From positions 1-64,000 of the forward strand of contig JAQBPO010000006.1 of the NCBI GenBank assembly GCA_028287465.1: DNA of 64,000 bases. The letters are read 5' to 3'. The stretch's first letter is position 1, and each line of letters opens with the position of its first letter. The translations under genes and the position numbers were made by a program. A model generated the notes under the pieces. That model did not search any database, was not told where the DNA came from, and saw only the letters and a list, made by a program, of their open reading frames with translations. Positions 14,396 to 52,588 of this stretch are shown here, piece by piece. The stretch comes from Fibrobacterota bacterium (GTDB lineage: Bacteria; Fibrobacterota; Fibrobacteria; UBA11236).

Positions 14396-15259
14396 ATGGC
14401 AATGGAACGGTTCGAGGCTCCCCGCCCTTTCGCGTACTTCGGGTACCGCGACTACCTCCGCGATACTTTCGAGCATCGCAGGAAAACCGATCCCGGATTC
14501 TCCCATAGGAGGTTCCTGGCGGCGGCGGGCATTCCCGGTTCTGGTTACCTGGTCAAGGTGCTGAAGGCCAGCCTCAGGCTGAACCGGAAATACGTCCCGA
14601 ATTTCTGCGCCGCGCTCGGGCTCAGCGGACGCGAGCAGCAATATTTCGAGAAGCTCGTCGAATTCGGGAACGAAAAACGGCATGAGCCGAAGCAGGCGCT
14701 CCTCAAGGATCTGCTGCGCCTCCGCGCCGCGAACCCGGAACTCTCCCTCAGCGACAAGCGCCTGAAGTTCTTCAAGCGGTGGTACTATCCCGTGGTCCGC
14801 GAAGTCATTTCCCTGACGCGGTTCCGCGGGGACTTCAACGCCCTGGCGCGCATGGTCGTCCCTCCCATCACGGCCGTGCAGGCCGAGAACGCGGTGAAGT
14901 TCCTGTCCAAGAACGGTTTCATAGCCTTGGAGAAGGAGGGCCATTATTCGCTCACCGAGGCCTTCATCACCTCCGGGGACCTGGTGAACTCGACCATGCT
15001 GGATCAGTACCATCGGGCCAACCTGGCCCTCAATTGCGAAGCCCTGGACTTGGTCCCGCCGGACCTGCGCAGCGCGTCTTCGCTCACCTTGACCCTGTCC
15101 GAAGCGAACTTCGAGCGCATACGCAGGGAGATCCGGGATTTCCGGGCCCATCTGATGGCGATCTCCAATGAGGATCCCAATCCGGAACGCGTCTTCCATA
15201 TCGGATTCATCGCCTTATCGCGTTCACGGAAAAAGAAGGATGGGACCGATGCGATCTGA
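14396..15259 (+). CDS. TIGR02147 family protein (Fibrobacter-type putative regulator), copy 1
   Basis: The 287-residue protein matches the TIGR02147 family. The N-terminal region has YFGYRDYLRDTFEHRRK followed by a helix-turn-helix-like segment (FSHRRFLAAAGIPGSGYLVKVL). The middle part contains the family signature FFKRWYYPVVREV and ALARMVVPPIT with a second winged-helix-like stretch (AVKFLSKNGFIALEKEG). The C-terminus includes the conserved IRREIRDFRAHLMAISNED and VFHIGFIALS. The family is abundant in Fibrobacter and is assumed to be transcriptional regulation, without experimental proof known to me. It overlaps the downstream lipoprotein gene by 11 bases, so the two are translationally coupled. 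Confidence 0.88.
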   Translation: MAMERFEAPRPFAYFGYRDYLRDTFEHRRKTDPGFSHRRFLAAAGIPGSGYLVKVLKASLRLNRKYVPNFCAALGLSGREQQYFEKLVEFGNEKRHEPKQALLKDLLRLRAANPELSLSDKRLKFFKRWYYPVVREVISLTRFRGDFNALARMVVPPITAVQAENAVKFLSKNGFIALEKEGHYSLTEAFITSGDLVNSTMLDQYHRANLALNCEALDLVPPDLRSASSLTLTLSEANFERIRREIRDFRAHLMAISNEDPNPERVFHIGFIALSRSRKKKDGTDAI

Positions 15260-16517
15260 TCGAACCCGCGGAACCGCCGCACGGAAACGGCACCCCTACC
15301 GGACCGCAACCACCCTGCTCTTGTATCTAGCCGCCATCCTATGGCTCACCGCCTGCATCGGCGAAGGACCCTCTTCCCCGACGGAACCCGTCGCCGGCGG
15401 ATCCGGCAGCGAAGCCGGGGACGCCTACGGCCGGGTGAGAAGCATCGGATCCGAACGGAACGAAGCCGGCGCCAAGGTGCTCCTGTACCGGACCGCGGAC
15501 TCCCTCTACGGACATCCATCCTGGATCGCCTCCGCGAGCGCGGATTCCGTAGGCGGATACCGGATCCACGCCCTCCCCGCCGGGACCTATGATCTGGAGA
15601 TCCGGGGACGGGCCGGCGAAAGCGTACTGTATCGCCGGGGCTTGGTCCATTCCGGGAAGGCCGATTCCGATTTCGGGACCGACACCCTGTCCCAGTCGGC
15701 CAGGTTCAAGGGCCGCGTTCCGGGATTGGCCGACAGCACCATCCTCTGGTTGGCGGGGACCCCTTATTCCGCCCGGCCCGATTCCCTCGGCGCCTTCCGA
15801 TTCGACAGCCTGCCGAAAGGCCCGTTCGTCGTGGTCTCGGAGCGCGTATCCGCGGGAGTGGTCACGCATGCGACCCTCATGGTCGTCACCCTCCAACCCG
15901 GCGACTCGACGATTTACGTCCCCCCCTCGGATACGTCGACCCAGCCGCCGATCGATACCGTGCCCAAGCCCAGTTCCTATGGGCTGCTGCTTGAGGATTT
16001 CGAAGACGGGAACGCCACGAACCTGTTCCCGGGAATAGGTCCCGGCGTCGGGGCCTGGTCCTCGGAAACCATGGGAGTCGGCGCGACCATCGTCCCTTCC
16101 ACCGAGAACCTGTCCGGAGGCATCACCTCCGCGGGCGCGTATCGCGGGAAGAGCATGATGATCACCTACGCCTTGCCGCTCGGATACGGCCCCAAGGACT
16201 GGATCCGCACCGTGATGGATATGAGCGGTGCGCCCGCGGATCTGGGCAAGGCCGATACCTTGTCCCTGTTCGCGAAGGGCAGCGGCAGGATCCACGTGGA
16301 GATATTCTGGAAGGACGGCACGGGCTGGCTATCGGCCTGGACCGCTATGGATCTTTCGCCGGATTGGAAGGAATACCGGTTCCCGACCAGGAATGCGGGA
16401 ATCACGGATAAGGGATTGAAGACCATCCTGCGGGTGCAGATCGGGGGCTATAACGGCACCGGATTCTGGATGGACGATATCCGGTTGCGCGGGACCGGGA
16501 TTGGCGCCGTCCCCTGA
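15249..16517 (+). CDS. Lipoprotein with carboxypeptidase-regulatory-like domains and a C-terminal CBM/CIA30-like domain
   Basis: The start at 15249 is chosen because AAGGA lies eight bases upstream; it overlaps the regulator's end. The 422-residue product has a basic N-terminus, a hydrophobic segment and a lipobox LTAC, so it should be a lipid-anchored envelope protein. Residues about 45-200 look like two beta-sandwich carboxypeptidase regulatory-like modules (GGYRIHALPAGTYDLEIRG; GAFRFDSLPKGPFVVV). After a Ser/Thr/Pro linker, residues about 245-415 begin LLLEDFEDGNATN and end WMDDIRLRG, a jelly-roll pattern seen in CBM11/CIA30-type carbohydrate-binding domains. The ligand is probably a glycan (inference). 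Confidence 0.75.
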   Translation: MRSDRTRGTAARKRHPYRTATTLLLYLAAILWLTACIGEGPSSPTEPVAGGSGSEAGDAYGRVRSIGSERNEAGAKVLLYRTADSLYGHPSWIASASADSVGGYRIHALPAGTYDLEIRGRAGESVLYRRGLVHSGKADSDFGTDTLSQSARFKGRVPGLADSTILWLAGTPYSARPDSLGAFRFDSLPKGPFVVVSERVSAGVVTHATLMVVTLQPGDSTIYVPPSDTSTQPPIDTVPKPSSYGLLLEDFEDGNATNLFPGIGPGVGAWSSETMGVGATIVPSTENLSGGITSAGAYRGKSMMITYALPLGYGPKDWIRTVMDMSGAPADLGKADTLSLFAKGSGRIHVEIFWKDGTGWLSAWTAMDLSPDWKEYRFPTRNAGITDKGLKTILRVQIGGYNGTGFWMDDIRLRGTGIGAVP

Positions 16518-16634: not shown

Positions 16635-17087
16635 TCATTCGGAAATGACGGGCGCGAAGGTCTCCTTGTACTCCAGGATTTCCTCCGCGATATTCACCGC
16701 TTCGGTTTCGGAGAGGACCTTCGCGGCCATGGGGAAAATATCCCGTTCCTCTTCCTTCACGTGGTGCTCGATATTCTCGTAGAGTACCTTGAACTTGGCG
16801 GTCCAGGCTTCGGTCCCCTTATCCTCGGCCTCGAGTTCCTTCAATAAGGTTTTGGCGACGTTATGCTCCTCGAAGGCTTCCATGGATTTCGCATGGGTCG
16901 TCTTTTCCGGCAGGATTTCCGGGTAGAAGAACTTCTCTTCGGCGGCCATGTGCACGGAGAGTTCCAGGTTGAGTTCCGCGAAAAGCCGTTCCCGCTCCTT
17001 CACTTCCTTTTCCGACAAATCCTTTATGGCCTCAAACATGCCCTTGGCCTTTTCGTGGTCTGCTATCAATAATCCGTAAACATTCAT
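16635..17087 (-). CDS. Hemerythrin HHE domain protein
   Basis: This 150-residue protein is a four-helix hemerythrin-like bundle. Metal-ligand histidine and glutamate motifs are visible: IADHEKAK, LSVHMAAEEKFFYPE, FEEHNVAK and IEHHVKEEERDIFP. These would bind a di-iron centre for O2, NO or iron handling in the cytoplasm. The ATG at 17087 (MNVYG) is preceded by CAGGAG at good spacing; an ATG six residues upstream lacks one. It stands alone, convergent with the lipoprotein gene on its left. The family call is secure and the biological role open. Confidence 0.88.
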   Translation of the reverse strand: MNVYGLLIADHEKAKGMFEAIKDLSEKEVKERERLFAELNLELSVHMAAEEKFFYPEILPEKTTHAKSMEAFEEHNVAKTLLKELEAEDKGTEAWTAKFKVLYENIEHHVKEEERDIFPMAAKVLSETEAVNIAEEILEYKETFAPVISE

Positions 17088-17478
17088 GGAGACTCCTGGT
17101 TTCAATCGGAGTTACGTTTCGCGGGCCCCAGGTGCAAACCATTCCAGGATCCGGGGATGATAAAGGTGAGGGTCTCCCCCATTCCTGAGCGGATCTCCAT
17201 TAATGGATTTTGCGATAGGCCGCAGGGAGACTGGGGCCTATCCACCCCGCCCTCCTAACCCGGGGTATTGAAACGGCTTGGGGTCTTCTTTGGGCCCGCA
17301 TCCCGGGCGCATGGGGTGGGCCCACCCCAATACCTCGATTGCGAAACCCGGGGAAGGTGGTCTTTTCCACCCTGCCTGCGCGCCGCCGGGTTTGGCTCCG
17401 CTCTTGCTCAAGGATAGACCGGGTCGGGTTCCGGAGGTTCCGGAACCGGAGCCATTCCATTCTTCGAAAGGGATAAGC

Positions 17479-43157: not shown

Positions 43158-45383
43158 TTATCTTAGTAAGCCGAACACGATCGCGGCCTTTTGATTCACG
43201 ATCGGGGCCCCGCTTCCCGGTTTCTGAAAAGTCCTTAAATTCGATTTCAGGATATAGGCCCCTACTCCGGCCCTGTGACCCTTTGCGGAACGTCCAGTCC
43301 AGATGATACGGGCGCGATAGGTTCCAGGCTTGCTTTCGTCCAGCAAAGCAAGGTCCTTTTCGTTGATGATTCCGGACCCGCTCACTACAAACTCGCCCAG
43401 GGTGGAAAGGATCTGGAAATCATAATCGACCGGCCCCGGTATTTCCAGGTCGATAATAGGGCCAACGAAACGGGTTCCATCCCCAGGGGAGCAGGATCCG
43501 CATTTGCCTTCGGTGTCGCCCGAAAGAGCGTTTCCGTTCCTGTCCAAGGGGATGAATACGTAGCGCGGAGGTGATGTGGGGTCCGGGTTGGACAAGCCAT
43601 CCGGCTCGCTACGCCCGTTTTGGAACAATACCTTCACGCTGCTGGGAGCCAGGAAATTGTATTCCACGGTGACGGTATCGCTTGGATACATTCCTGCCTT
43701 GGTCGCGAAAATCTTAAGCGTTCCGCTCTGCGAGACAACCACCGAGCCACTTGCAACCGGTGCTGAGCCATTTAAGGAGAAGTAAATCGTTGCGCCGGCC
43801 GTACTGTCCGAAAGACCGACATTAAGGGGAGTTGAAAAACTGTACGGGGAGACGGCGGCAGAGCCAGGAGGGTTCGCAACCGGGGTGGCCACCTTTGGTG
43901 CGGGATTTTCCGTATATACGGCAATCATTATCGGACTGGAGATCTGATTGGATTTGGTGCCGATGGCTTCGATGATTGTGCTGGTGGAGATGGTGATGGG
44001 ACCCGTATATATCGGGCTGTTGATATCCGGCATAGTGCCGTCCAGGGTATAGTGTATGGCGGAACCGGATTCACCTGAAGTGAGAAGCACCGTGAAATCG
44101 GAATCCAAGGTATTGAATATTTTTCCGGAAGGAGTGGCGGTTGGAGGCAGCACTTGAGGGGCGGGATTTTCCGTGAATACGGCGGTTATGACCGGACTGG
44201 GGATCTGGTTGGATTTGGTGGCGATGGCCTTGATTGCCATTGTAGTGGTGACCGGGATCGGTCCCGAATAAACCGTGCTGTTGCTGTCCGGGACTCGGCC
44301 ATCGAGGGTATAGTGAATCACGGATCCCGGCTCGCCTGGTGTCAGGGTGACCGTAAAATCCGGGTCCATAGTGGTGAAAACCTTTCCCGGAGGATCGGCT
44401 AGGGGCGGCAAAGTCACCGCCATGGCGAGCTTGCTATATACCCACGAGCCTACGAAACTATGATGATCCCCCGGTTTATACGCAACCGCTTTGAGAGTGG
44501 TCGTGGCCGTGAAAGTCAATGGCCCGGTGTATACCGTGCTGTTGCTGTCCGGAGTGCTCCCGTCGATGGCATAATAGATGGTGGCTCCTGAGGTCGCATC
44601 CGTCAGGGTAACGGTTATTTTCGGTCCCACGAAACCGGTATCGAGAGGGTTGGCAATCGGCGTGGCCACCTGCTCCGTAGCCAGACTCAGTCCGGAGACC
44701 CGGAATACCACATCGTTAAGGTCGAAATCCGACATGGGATTTCCCATGTCCTCGAAAGAGAATTCCACTACGGCATTGTGGGGGGCCGGAACGCGACCCG
44801 CCGCGGAAAGGCAATGCAAGCATCCCGTATACACATTCGGATGCGCCACTTGCGTGAAATAGGCTCCCGGATTATTTATGCCGGTATATTTCGGAACGAG
44901 ATCTTCGGGCTTCAAATCGTAAGGAGCAGGATATGTTTTGGGGATGATCCGATAGGCGAAGTAGATAATATCACCCACCCTGATGTCGTGGCCGTTGGGA
45001 TAACCGGGACGCGGGCCTTGCAGATTGATGGCACGATTGCATGGGTCCACCGTGGGGCAGAGGTGCGAGTCATCTACATTGGTGAACAACGAATCCAGCT
45101 TGTTGCCATCGCGGGTATCAACGAAAAACAAGGTGCCCTGCCAGCCCGCGTCGCTGTTGGAGTTCCAGACCCGGACGGAGTCATTCGGATTGGCGCGCTC
45201 GAAGGTGTTGCCGATATACATGGGATCGGCGGCGAAGTATTTGGGGTTGCAGGGGTTTCCGAAAATGGTGCCGCAAAAAGGCACGGGAGATTGGGCCCAC
45301 GAAGAATGGGTACACAATCCCAAAGCCAGGATAGGAAGGATACGGAGAAAATTTCGGGTCACGGCCGCCATTGTCTGTTGCAT
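43158..45383 (-). CDS. Secreted protein with DUF4114-like domain and four chitobiase/hexosaminidase C-terminal-type repeats
   Basis: A 741-residue protein with a signal peptide (LRILPILALGLCTHSSWAQ). Residues about 30-235 include FSFEDMGNPMSDFDLNDVVF, a DUF4114-like Asp-rich calcium motif. Residues about 240-575 are four tandem beta-sandwich repeats of the CHB_HEX_C_1 type; three carry the hallmark (A)IHYTLDG or IYYAIDG, then PDSNSTVYTGP, and the fourth (IYFSLNGSAP) is degenerate. The end (RARIIWTGRSAKGHRAGVGAYILKSNL) is FlgD/T9SS-like. The start is uncertain between 45383 and 45371. Base use is more A/T-rich than in neighbouring genes, a possible sign of transfer. Likely a surface polysaccharide-binding or adhesive protein. 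Confidence 0.8.
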   Translation of the reverse strand: MQQTMAAVTRNFLRILPILALGLCTHSSWAQSPVPFCGTIFGNPCNPKYFAADPMYIGNTFERANPNDSVRVWNSNSDAGWQGTLFFVDTRDGNKLDSLFTNVDDSHLCPTVDPCNRAINLQGPRPGYPNGHDIRVGDIIYFAYRIIPKTYPAPYDLKPEDLVPKYTGINNPGAYFTQVAHPNVYTGCLHCLSAAGRVPAPHNAVVEFSFEDMGNPMSDFDLNDVVFRVSGLSLATEQVATPIANPLDTGFVGPKITVTLTDATSGATIYYAIDGSTPDSNSTVYTGPLTFTATTTLKAVAYKPGDHHSFVGSWVYSKLAMAVTLPPLADPPGKVFTTMDPDFTVTLTPGEPGSVIHYTLDGRVPDSNSTVYSGPIPVTTTMAIKAIATKSNQIPSPVITAVFTENPAPQVLPPTATPSGKIFNTLDSDFTVLLTSGESGSAIHYTLDGTMPDINSPIYTGPITISTSTIIEAIGTKSNQISSPIMIAVYTENPAPKVATPVANPPGSAAVSPYSFSTPLNVGLSDSTAGATIYFSLNGSAPVASGSVVVSQSGTLKIFATKAGMYPSDTVTVEYNFLAPSSVKVLFQNGRSEPDGLSNPDPTSPPRYVFIPLDRNGNALSGDTEGKCGSCSPGDGTRFVGPIIDLEIPGPVDYDFQILSTLGEFVVSGSGIINEKDLALLDESKPGTYRARIIWTGRSAKGHRAGVGAYILKSNLRTFQKPGSGAPIVNQKAAIVFGLLR

Positions 45384-45424: not shown

Positions 45425-45479
45425 GCCGGAAATTCCGGCGGAACCGCCCGGGAAGATTCCGTCCTCCGGCGGAGGACGG
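45425..45479. promoter_or_regulatory. Two palindromes in a divergent promoter region
   Basis: GCCGGAA-A-TTCCGGC (45425-45439) and CCGTCCTCC-GGC-GGAGGACGG (45459-45479) lie between the secreted repeat gene (minus) and the second TIGR02147 gene (plus). They could be operators for the regulator or RNA hairpins in the 5' leader of the minus-strand gene. The same sequences do not occur just upstream of the first TIGR02147 gene. Confidence 0.35.
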
Positions 45480-45558
45480 ATATTCCCCCTCCCCTTCCCG
45501 TTCAACCCCCAAATCCCGCAATCCTGGCTGGCAGGTTGAAAAGATTGGGAGGCAAAAT

Positions 45559-45627
45559 ATGCGCTTGTCGCTAAGATTAATGACTCAAGTATGCCGATCC
45601 CCAAGCCGTCCATATTCGAATACATAA
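45559..45627 (+). CDS. Possible 22-residue leader peptide overlapping the TIGR02147 start
   Basis: GGGAGG lies six bases before an ATG that opens a 22-codon frame (MRLSLRLMTQVCRSPSRPYS then two more residues). Its stop at 45625-45627 lies 34 bases inside the TIGR02147 gene, in another frame. The regulator's own ATG at 45591 has no ribosome-binding site, so ribosomes might reach it by coupling from this frame. This could equally be chance, and no conservation data are available. Confidence 0.25.
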   Translation: MRLSLRLMTQVCRSPSRPYSNT

Positions 45628-46424
45628 ACTATCGTGAATTCCTGAAGGACTATTACCAATGGAAGAAAGGGATCACGCCCTCTTTCTCCTACACCGTATT
45701 CGCTAAAAAGGTCGGCTTCGGCGCGAAAAGCTTCCTGCCGCATGTGATCGAGGGGAAACGGGATCTATCCCGCGATTCCATCTTCCGGGTGGGCGAAGCC
45801 ATCGGTCTGGATGCCGACTCCCTTTCCTATTTCGAAGATCTGGTCGCCTTCAACCAGTGCAAGGTGCTCAAGCAGAAGGCCCACTTCTTCTCCCGCCTGG
45901 GGTCCCATAAGAAGGCAATCAAGGCCCACACCTTCCAGCTGGCTCAATTGGAATTCTTTTCCACCTGGTACCATTCCACCATCCGGGAACTCGTCACCCT
46001 CTTCGACTTCGACGAGGATTATTCCATTTTGGCGAGGATGGTGCGGCCGCGGATCACCGCCAACCAGGCGAAACAGTCGGTTAACCTGCTTCTGGAACTG
46101 GGCATGATCCGGAAAGACGGCTCCCGCTATGCGCAATCCAACCTGGCCGTGACCACTGGGGACGAAGTCCGATCGCTGGTCGTCCAAAAATACCATTCCC
46201 AGAACCTCAATCTGGCGGAAGTCGCCCTGGAAAAAACCCCGTCCATGGAACGGGACATCTCCAGCCTGGTCGTGGGCCTCTCCAAGGGCGGATTTGAAAC
46301 GGTAAAGTCCCATATCCGGAAATTCCGGAAGGAATTGATCGACATCGTGGAACGGGATGCCCGGGCCTCCCGCGTCTACCATATCGGATTCCAACTGTTC
46401 CCCACCAGCGAATCGGCCGAATAA
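45591..46424 (+). CDS. TIGR02147 family protein (Fibrobacter-type putative regulator), copy 2
   Basis: A 277-residue paralogue of the protein at 14396. Shared blocks include the opening IFEYINYREFLKDYYQWKK, the HTH-like FSYTVFAKKVGFGAKSFL, the central FFSTWYHSTIRELVTLFDF, ARMVRPRIT, and the C-terminal IRKFRKELIDIVERD and RVYHIGFQLFP. The fold appears to be two helix-turn-helix-like segments joined by a helical middle. The ATG has no ribosome-binding site. It is followed after seven bases by a lipoprotein-like gene, the same arrangement as copy 1. Expected to be a cytoplasmic regulator; target genes unknown, with the adjacent genes the first candidates. Confidence 0.88.
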   Translation: MPIPKPSIFEYINYREFLKDYYQWKKGITPSFSYTVFAKKVGFGAKSFLPHVIEGKRDLSRDSIFRVGEAIGLDADSLSYFEDLVAFNQCKVLKQKAHFFSRLGSHKKAIKAHTFQLAQLEFFSTWYHSTIRELVTLFDFDEDYSILARMVRPRITANQAKQSVNLLLELGMIRKDGSRYAQSNLAVTTGDEVRSLVVQKYHSQNLNLAEVALEKTPSMERDISSLVVGLSKGGFETVKSHIRKFRKELIDIVERDARASRVYHIGFQLFPTSESAE

Positions 46425-46431
46425 GTCATCC

Positions 46432-48081
46432 ATGCTAGCGCGACTTTTCCGGAAAACCCGCTTCACCGCCCTGCTGGCCTTGCTGGCGGCATCCGCCTGG
46501 CATTGTTCCGATCGGGTTGCCGGCGGGGCCACCGAAGCGGGTAATACCGTTACGGCGTCCCTGGAGGGTTCCGTCCTGACCTCCGACGGCATCGCGGCCG
46601 TCAACGCCAGGGTCTCCTTGCTTCCGGCAGACTTCGACCCTGGTTCCGGGGATACGCTTCCCAAACCCTGGGAAGCCTTCACCGACCGGATGGGTGAGTA
46701 CCATTTGGAAACGGCAAAGACGGGTCTCTACAACATCCTGATCGAATCGGCCAATCAGGAAGGGTTCGCCTTGATCCAGGGCATCTCCATCGACTCGCTG
46801 GACCTGGGGAAGACCATACCGATGCGGACCGCCGCCCTTTCCGATCCCGGCACCGTCACCGTGCCCGTTCCCGCGGGAAGCACCGGGGGCCATCTTTACC
46901 TGCCCGGCACGCGCACCATGGTGAACTTGGATACGGCCACGCCGATCGCCGGTCAGATCACGCTTTCAGGCGTGCCTTCGGGCCTGTTTTCCCGACTCCT
47001 CTTTGCCCGATCCGGTTTCCCGACCGTGAACCTTTTGGAACGTACCATCCAGGTTTCCCCAGGAACCGATCTGCCGCTGGACCCTTACCACGCATGGCGG
47101 TTCAAGCGCCGCATCACCATCCATCCCGCTGCCAGCGGCGCGCCTCTCAGCGCCGATCTGACCCATTTCCCATTGCTGATCCGCCTGGACTCGGGAAACT
47201 TCGACTTCAGTCAGGCACGTTCCGATGGAGCGGATCTGCGCCTCACCAAGTCGGATGGACGCACTCCGCTTCCGGTGGAAATCGAGGAATGGGATGCGGT
47301 GGGCAAGAAAGCCGCGATCTGGGTTGGGATCGATACGGTCTTCGCCGCGGACACGGCGCAAAGCCTTCGCCTGCTCACAGGAAGGGATTCAGTGGCCGGG
47401 ATTTCGGACCCGGCGTCCGTGTTCGACACCGCGGCGGGGTTCGTGGGCGCCTGGCACCTGGGCGGGAATCTTCGGGACGCTTCCGGATTCGCGAATAACG
47501 GCGTGGATTCCGGATCGCAATCCGTGCCGGGATTGATAGGCCAGGCACGCTCCTTCGACGGCCGCAACCGGCATATCGGAATCGCCGACGCCCCCAGCCT
47601 CCGTTTCGGCGCCGGGGATTTCGCCTTATCGGCCTGGTTCAAGGCGGATGCGGTCGATTCGACTCGCCAGATTTTCGCCAAGCGCGATTCGGCCTCGAAC
47701 TACGAAATGCAAATCGATGGCGGTGGAAACCTGTCCCTCCTCGTGAACTCCTACGGTCGCACCGATCGGTTTCTCGTCAGCAAGGCCCACGTACAGGCGG
47801 GTGTCTGGTACCACGCGGACCTCCTGATGGAAGGAGGAAAAGCCTCTTTCTATCTCAATGGGAACCTGGAGTCCGGTCCTCTGGTTTTCAACGAGGATGC
47901 CCGTCCGGCATCGCCTCTCTGGTTCGGCGGTGACCCTGCCGTGCCGGGCGCTGAAAATTTCAAGGGAAGCCTCGAAGAGATCGAGTTCGCCAGGTCCTCC
48001 AGAAGCGGCGAATGGGTGAGGCTCACCTACGCCACCCAGAAGGAAAATGCCGCCATTGTGGAAGTGGGTCCGGCCGAATAG
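46432..48081 (+). CDS. Envelope protein with carboxypeptidase-regulatory-like, DUF2341 and LamG domains
   Basis: A 549-residue protein with an N-terminal hydrophobic segment and Cys25 (LLALLAASAWHCSDR). The residues before the Cys (A-W-H) do not fit a canonical lipobox, so lipidation is uncertain. Residues about 40-210 resemble carboxypeptidase regulatory-like sandwiches (GEYHLETAKTGLYNILIES). DUF2341 follows (about 220-325: AWRFKRRITIHPAASG, LPVEIEEWD). The last 210 residues are a LamG/concanavalin-type domain (VGAWHLGGNLRDASGFANNG; FALSAWFKADAVDSTRQIFA), a common glycan or protein binder. It lies seven bases after its TIGR02147 partner, with no clear ribosome-binding site, suggesting coupling. 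Confidence 0.82.
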   Translation: MLARLFRKTRFTALLALLAASAWHCSDRVAGGATEAGNTVTASLEGSVLTSDGIAAVNARVSLLPADFDPGSGDTLPKPWEAFTDRMGEYHLETAKTGLYNILIESANQEGFALIQGISIDSLDLGKTIPMRTAALSDPGTVTVPVPAGSTGGHLYLPGTRTMVNLDTATPIAGQITLSGVPSGLFSRLLFARSGFPTVNLLERTIQVSPGTDLPLDPYHAWRFKRRITIHPAASGAPLSADLTHFPLLIRLDSGNFDFSQARSDGADLRLTKSDGRTPLPVEIEEWDAVGKKAAIWVGIDTVFAADTAQSLRLLTGRDSVAGISDPASVFDTAAGFVGAWHLGGNLRDASGFANNGVDSGSQSVPGLIGQARSFDGRNRHIGIADAPSLRFGAGDFALSAWFKADAVDSTRQIFAKRDSASNYEMQIDGGGNLSLLVNSYGRTDRFLVSKAHVQAGVWYHADLLMEGGKASFYLNGNLESGPLVFNEDARPASPLWFGGDPAVPGAENFKGSLEEIEFARSSRSGEWVRLTYATQKENAAIVEVGPAE

Positions 48082-48561: not shown

Positions 48562-48638
48562 TGGTCGGGATGGCGGGATTCGAACCCACGACCACCTGAA
48601 CCCCATTCAGGTACTCTACCAGACTGAGCCACATCCCG
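48562..48638 (-). tRNA. tRNA-Pro (anticodon GGG)
   Basis: The minus strand gives a full cloverleaf: acceptor CGGGATG pairing with CATCCCG, D-arm with AGTCTGGTA, anticodon stem CCTGA/TCAGG around loop ATGGGGT (anticodon GGG), and T-arm GTGGGTTCGAATCCCGC. The 3' CCA is encoded (48562-48564). It decodes CCC and CCU. An antisense protein frame across it is spurious. Confidence 0.95.
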
Positions 48639-52514: not shown

Positions 52515-52588
52515 TGGGCCCACTCCGGCTTGAACGGAGGACCAAGCGATTATGAGTCGCGTGCTCTAACCAACTGAGCTATGGGCCC
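52515..52588 (-). tRNA. tRNA with CAU anticodon (Met, or Ile2 if lysidine-modified)
   Basis: On the minus strand the acceptor GGGCCCA pairs with TGGGCCC, the D-arm is GCTCAGTTGGTTAGAGC, the anticodon loop is CTCATAA (CAT), and the T-arm is CTCCGTTCAAGCCGGAG. CCA is not encoded, unlike tRNA-Pro. The first acceptor pair is Watson-Crick, so it is not an initiator. A TATAAC element lies 14 bases upstream. Confidence 0.9.

Follow-up and report, generated by a model that had tools for sequence, protein, structure and literature searches.

With the chaperone-coactivators of type III secretion, and likewise with FlgM, the activity of a transcription factor depends on a secreted protein having left the cytoplasm. 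In the RRNPPA systems, the ligand of a helix-turn-helix (HTH) regulator is part of an exported peptide that is encoded alongside it (PMC9765709). The TIGR02147/DUF4423 family of regulators, on the other hand, is without a described function in the literature searched: TIGR02147 (Fsuc_second) is not mentioned there, and DUF4423 appears in one passing mention, as the annotation of the predation-induced Bdellovibrio protein Bd3700, in a paper that describes neither a lipoprotein partner nor a tag (PMC12546842). We could not find any described system with the pairing, the tag, the sensor domain or the mode of gene control considered below. In the Fibrobacterota, the first Fibrobacter succinogenes genome paper reported few regulators near cellulases and left the control of cellulases open (PMC3079729), and on cellulose the S85 envelope has been seen to contain altered amounts of lipoproteins with CarboxypepD_reg domains (PMC6851124).

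The window analyzed here is a stretch of 64,000 nucleotides of a Fibrobacterota genome (contig JAQBPO010000006.1, positions 1 to 64,000), and all coordinates refer to it. It holds two regulator-lipoprotein pairs, the first of which (pair 1) belongs to a set of about 50 in the genome and comprises the following features.

14396..15259, + strand: pair-1 regulator of the TIGR02147/DUF4423 family, 285-287 aa, starting at ATG 14396 or at the in-frame ATG 14402
15249..15259, + strand: overlap of regulator stop and lipoprotein start, 11 bases, by direct reading
15249..16517, + strand: pair-1 partner, predicted lipoprotein of 422 aa (overlapping ORF, signal peptide, lipobox, CarboxypepD_reg)
15249..15356, + strand: signal peptide and lipobox LTAC, with the predicted lipidated Cys36 at codon 15354-15356, by direct reading
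15390..15431, + strand: post-lipobox tag VAGGSGSEAGDAYG, residues 48-61, from the tag model
15429..15623, + strand: CarboxypepD_reg domain, residues 61-125 (PF13620, 34.2 bits, cut-off 32.3)
15984..16493, + strand: fast-evolving C-terminal domain without a Pfam family, common to other Fibrobacterota lipoproteins and, weakly, to a GH5 cellulase

In profile searches the regulator reaches 222 bits for TIGR02147 and 93 bits for DUF4423, where the cut-offs are 50 and 30, and its partner is a predicted lipoprotein by virtue of a signal peptide with the lipobox cysteine LTAC (Cys36). An earlier note on this DNA had described a TIGR02147 regulator overlapping a lipoprotein gene by 11 bases and had assigned to the lipoprotein carboxypeptidase-regulatory-like modules and a CIA30/CBM11-like domain. 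The overlap is exact, with ORFs at 14396-15259 and 15249-16517, and one such module is there, above its cut-off, at residues 61-125. The CIA30/CBM11 identity of the C-terminus was not confirmed: this domain had no Pfam match at E<=1, eight relatives had none either, and a 16-sequence profile found no relative in the PDB. Domains related to it do occur in other Fibrobacterota proteins, and since a weakly related one sits in a GH5 cellulase, carbohydrate binding by the pair-1 C-terminus is plausible. The pair has an orthologue in a second genome of the same genus (L330 in genome G090), with identities of 73% for the regulator, 40% for the lipoprotein and 30% for the distal domain; the stretch PVAGG-GSEAGDAYG of the partner, which includes the tag core AGGSGSEAGDAYG, is retained there except for one residue. 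Downstream of pair 1, at 16635-17105 on the minus strand, lies a gene for a hemerythrin HHE protein, nearest to the PA2171 ribosome-binding persister family at 86 bits, under the cut-off of 190.

The second pair of the window has the same order of genes.

45591..46424, + strand: pair-2 regulator of the TIGR02147/DUF4423 family (265 bits for TIGR02147, cut-off 50; 118 bits for DUF4423, cut-off 30)
46432..48081, + strand: pair-2 partner, predicted lipoprotein with Cys25 at 46504-46506 and a C-terminus of DUF2341 and Laminin_G_3
46516..46548, + strand: pair-2 tag VAGGATEAGNT (core AGGATEAGNT), from the tag model

The recurrence of the arrangement at 45.6-48.1 kb, proposed in the earlier note, therefore stands as regards a regulator followed by a lipoprotein with a different C-terminus (DUF2341 and Laminin_G_3), and fails as regards the overlap: with the best lipoprotein start, 46432, the two genes are separated by a 7-base gap. 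A divergent gene at 43158-45383 on the minus strand encodes a 741-aa secreted protein with four chitobiase/beta-hexosaminidase C-terminal (CHB_HEX_C_1) repeats, and between its start at 45383 and the pair-2 regulator lies a perfect palindrome with 11-bp arms, TCCGTCCTCCGGCGGAGGACGGA (45458-45480), a candidate operator. Two tRNA genes, at 48565-48638 and 52515-52588 on the minus strand (Rfam, 63 bits each), are all that an Rfam scan of the window returned.

The genome as a whole (5.82 Mb in 100 contigs) contains 53 TIGR02147 matches, of which 52 could be assessed for a downstream neighbour. All these loci were taken with their flanks, genes were delimited with a codon-usage caller and the downstream neighbour was inspected. 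A start bearing a lipobox lies behind 49 of the 52 TIGR02147 genes, as against 38 of 354 other genes in the same regions (odds ratio 136, p = 2e-35), and such a start overlaps the preceding gene in 38/52 versus 8/354 cases. Roughly 30 of the approximately 68 PF13620 genes in the genome sit directly behind a TIGR02147 gene. Among partners, CarboxypepD_reg is found in 32/48 here and in 45/67 in other genomes, LamG in 20/48 and DUF2341 in 19/48 here, the remainder being scattered; the C-termini are diverse, comprising LamG, Kelch, LRR, nucleoside hydrolase or nothing recognisable. The enrichment of lipoproteins that the earlier note anticipated downstream of TIGR02147 genes is thus borne out by a wide margin, in this genome and across the phylum.

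TIGR02147 is present in 91 of the 101 Fibrobacterota genomes sampled. Over many families and several phyla, a lipoprotein start follows the regulator at 236 of 255 loci (217 by a strict and 19 by a relaxed lipobox rule), and overlaps it at 184 of those 236, the overlap being one of four bases in 111 of the 184. A further Fibrobacterota set gave 44/53 lipoproteins by the strict rule, with most of the others combining a relaxed lipobox and the tag. Pairs are also found outside the phylum, in Bdellovibrionales, Halobacteriovoraceae, Bacteriovorax and genomes labelled Deltaproteobacteria (Bdellovibrionota-type), where the strict rule identifies 14 of 20 newly sampled neighbours as lipoproteins, a tag-like sequence occurs in several further neighbours that are secreted proteins, and some partners are small (81-222 aa) and still carry the tag. 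Many partners have an Arg directly before the lipobox Cys (e.g. LVRC, LFRC; partners L042, L121, L152, L156, L159, L160, L166, L168, L174, L200, L220, L225, L236 and L255); many of these come from Chitinispirillaceae/Chitinivibrionales-type genomes and would be missed by canonical lipobox rules. No TIGR02147 match occurs in ten small Fibrobacterota genomes of 2.0-2.9 Mb (genera g13 and g17: G003, G010, G014, G018, G032, G036, G044, G062, G064 and G080), which provide a natural presence/absence contrast. Taken together, each TIGR02147 gene is best explained as forming one co-translated two-gene system with the lipoprotein gene that follows it.

What the partners have in common is a short tag behind the lipidated cysteine. 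Its motif is G-[GT]-[GTS]-[TS]-[ED]-T-[GET]-N-[GPTA], or in shorter form G-[GT]-x-[TS]-[ED]-T-[GET]-N, with an information content of 13.2 bits versus 5.6 in shuffled sequences; it is found in 91% of 221 distinct partners, starting at a median of 8 residues past the Cys, and beyond partner residue 110 it is matched at 5 of 65,246 positions. Glycan binding had to be rejected as the unifying feature, since the C-termini vary and the small partners from outside the phylum are tagged all the same; of the repeated module of one regulator and one surface binder put forward in the earlier note, it is the phylum-wide one-to-one pairing that holds, not the glycan binder as common denominator. When the whole genome was searched with the tag profile at E<0.05, the matches were the TIGR02147 partners, one clear copy without a regulator on contig C7 and two marginal ones (contigs C44 and C73). 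By this profile the tag is nearly confined to regulator-linked lipoproteins in this genome. The clear exception (L327, at about 61.4-62.9 kb of contig C7) is a tagged lipoprotein with the sequence LAGATSETTSG that resembles the partner of the pair at 45.5 kb of contig C10. Over 74 independent related pairs, the tag is the most conserved segment at 81% identity, compared with 69% for the regulator, 29% for the linker between Cys and tag, 27% for the signal peptide, 38% for the 90 residues after the tag and 36% for the distal part. Four partners carry a second or third copy, most clearly L231 with two (STDTDN and TTETDN) and L393 with three (GGSEVGNPDP twice and GGGAEAGNP once).

AlphaFold modelled the pair-1 regulator from 70 sequences with a pLDDT of 90.9 and a pTM of 0.73, as a chain that begins with a five-helix HTH, continues with a winged-helix-like middle and ends in two long helices. 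The following segments can be placed on it.

14444..14671, + strand: predicted N-terminal helix-turn-helix bundle, residues 15-90, XRE/HigA-like, with five helices in the model
14783..14953, + strand: predicted winged-helix-like segment of DUF4423, residues 128-184, with helices at 128-139, 145-151 and 158-170 and strands at 174-176 and 182-184 in the model
14951..15175, + strand: putative tag-binding surface of DUF4423, residues 184-258 (with 123/124/130/134 upstream), from couplings

Foldseek aligns the HTH bundle with HigA antitoxins over some 75-87 columns at a probability of 0.97-0.98, but with E of about 0.6, and its sequence matches to C.BclI and HigA are weak (E 0.56-1.1). The winged-helix segment has a weak sequence match to the MarR-type ZitR (E 0.11), and a MarR-type protein is also the best PDB match for the middle of the model. 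As none of the Foldseek matches has E<0.2 and none spans the whole chain, the architecture lacks a close solved relative.

The regulator and the tag of its partner have changed together. In distantly related pairs, the distance between tags correlates with that between regulators (r 0.32); for the 90 residues after the tag (0.08) and for the signal peptide (-0.04) there is no such relation. Within the regulator the correlation comes from DUF4423 (r 0.33-0.35; partial r 0.33) and hardly from the HTH (partial r 0.05), and in sliding windows it peaks at residues 201-260. Mean-field direct coupling analysis (mfDCA) of 267 regulator-partner pairs, with an effective number of 154-193, placed 11 tag columns in 36 of the 40 strongest regulator-partner couplings and the 24 columns after the tag in none of the 40. 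The best regulator-tag coupling, with a z of 15.9, is on a par with the strongest internal contacts of the regulator, in which one of 37,128 pairs scores higher. Of the 35 couplings with z>4, 28 join residues 181-260 to the tag and two join the HTH to it. In 25 runs in which the tag was simulated on the regulator tree with matched rates, the maximum z was 6.9 and at most two pairs exceeded 5, the observed values being 12.7 and 11. Couplings 252-2 and 248-4 (regulator residue, tag position) were recovered every time when the data were split in halves by sequence cluster, and 225-7 in 5 of 6 splits. Finally, after training restricted to regulators with less than 42% identity to those of this genome, a model ranked the cognate tag at a mean percentile of 0.74, versus 0.51 for HTH columns.

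These couplings are also ordered in space. Along residues 184-200 the best-coupled tag position rises broadly in order from 1 to 8 (184 with 1, through to 200 with 8), and along helix 245-258 the order is reversed, each helical turn corresponding to about two tag residues (258-0, 255-2, 252-2, 248-4, 245-6). The odd tag positions 1 and 3 are coupled to regulator residues 134 and 123/124/130, and regulator residues that share a coupled tag position show mutual couplings as well (204-227, 134-184, 188-252). Such an order is the one that an extended strand lying in a groove would give. At the residue level, a tag Glu accompanies Arg248 in 93 of 99 weighted cases, and a tag Asp accompanies Arg or Lys. 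The alignments thus establish a specific co-variation of tag residues with the C-terminal domain of the regulator (residues 123-258), to which recombination linkage could add, because, within the regulator gene, it is the 3' end that lies nearest to the tag on the DNA.

From these data we propose that the regulator, which should be cytoplasmic because it combines a predicted DNA-binding architecture with the lack of a signal peptide, would act as a DNA-binding protein through an XRE-like helix-turn-helix and a winged helix, and that its DUF4423 domain would bind its own partner's tag in extended form: the tag strand would run along residues 184-200 and 223-231 and face helix 245-258, and Arg or Lys248 would pair with the tag Glu or Asp. 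Direct recognition of the partner's own tag is, on this evidence, likely. An AlphaFold model of a natural regulator-partner read-through (L254, with TAG read as Gln), run without a paired alignment, left the tag disordered (pLDDT 44-47) and undocked, which weighs mildly against binding. Since the two partners end in different compartments, some route between them has to be assumed, be it the precursor or a re-imported peptide; for the same reason the tag would most likely be read while the precursor, a product of the overlapping gene, is still unexported. The regulator would in this way sense the departure of the lipoprotein from the cytoplasm and adjust transcription of the cassette according to its export, and the distal domains of the lipoprotein would constitute an exchangeable, fast-evolving business end at the cell surface. 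We assign a probability of about 0.55 to tag recognition by DUF4423 and sensing of the precursor or its export jointly. As to the DNA target, inverted repeats upstream of the regulators were not clearly enriched (excess 0.33, s.e. 0.19), a search for a promoter-like site gave no match, and the upstream DNA of two pair-1 orthologues revealed no obvious common element.

Three other accounts of these data deserve consideration. The co-variation would fit equally well if a peptide with the tag were released from the exported lipoprotein by cleavage, re-entered the cell and bound the regulator like a pheromone, so that cells monitor their own or others' surface lipoproteins. This would work as in RRNPPA systems (PMC9765709), and the tandem tags of four partners (clearest in L231 and L393) would suit it; yet the flanks of the tag (the linker, 29% identical, and the residues that follow the tag) lack the conservation expected of a shared processing site, and the lipidated N-terminus adjoins the tag, and we hold this account to be unlikely, if still worth keeping in view. 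The pair might instead form an ordinary autoregulated operon in which the regulator never touches the lipoprotein, the tag serves as a sorting or surface-export signal and the co-variation reflects shared descent and gene linkage. Tight linkage and inheritance as a cassette are clear, DUF4423 adjoins the tag in the DNA, and the tag occupies the position that sorting signals have in other phyla. A general sorting signal of the LES type, carried by many lipoproteins regardless of their neighbours, was nevertheless rejected as the sole explanation, since the tag profile finds nearly only regulator partners and nearly all other lipoproteins of the genome lack the tag. The couplings, moreover, exceed the tree-matched simulation, the HTH columns of the same ancestry and the signal peptide lying between DUF4423 and the tag show almost none, and an ordered coupling geometry would not be expected, all of which makes a plain operon rather improbable.

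The predicted HigA-like fold of the HTH, the regulator gene coming first, the overlapping reading frames and the partner binding postulated for the C-terminal domain would also suit an antitoxin- or chaperone-like pair, in which the regulator mainly protects the cell from the precursor, or delivers it, and DNA binding merely autoregulates the complex, as in HigA-type systems. Pfam tallies reveal no known toxin domain among the partners, PADLOC gave no match to defence-system models, and the genome contains one partner copy without a regulator, so that we regard such a pair as very unlikely. Should recognition of the precursor by DUF4423 be correct, it would provide a function for a large regulator family, with about 50 copies here, and for the matching lipoproteins, and it would make DUF4423 a peptide-recognition domain with a readable specificity code, the predictions of which are testable by one peptide-binding assay. 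It would also bear on the open question of control in cellulose degradation. More generally, and tentatively, DUF4423 may represent a new sensor domain that reads an N-terminal prelipoprotein tag by strand addition, in dozens of insulated, export-measuring circuits of one regulator and one lipoprotein in the Fibrobacterota.

The resemblance to known systems is one of outline. As in the RRNPPA regulators (PrgX, Rgg, PlcR), a predicted N-terminal HTH is combined with a C-terminal domain that probably binds a short segment of a co-encoded exported polypeptide, in many paralogous pairs. RRNPPA proteins bind their peptide, which oligopeptide permease brings back into the cell, through 5-9 TPR or TPR-like repeats, whereas the regulators analyzed here have no TPR family match, the pair-1 model shows a winged helix and long helices and no TPR superhelix, and no RRNPPA structure is among the Foldseek matches listed for the pair-1 regulator; the ligand segment, furthermore, lies at the N-terminus of a large lipoprotein, and the hosts belong to Gram-negative phyla. 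With type II toxin-antitoxin systems of the HigBA kind, the pairs share a leading regulator gene, overlapping genes and, by prediction, an XRE-like DNA-binding fold, and they differ in that the partner is a predicted exported lipoprotein with adhesion-type domains and not an RNase. The proposed tie between export and transcription is akin to that of the type III chaperone-coactivators and FlgM, but there is no homology to them, the route is that of Sec and lipoproteins, and each substrate would have one private regulator, some 50 times over in a single genome.
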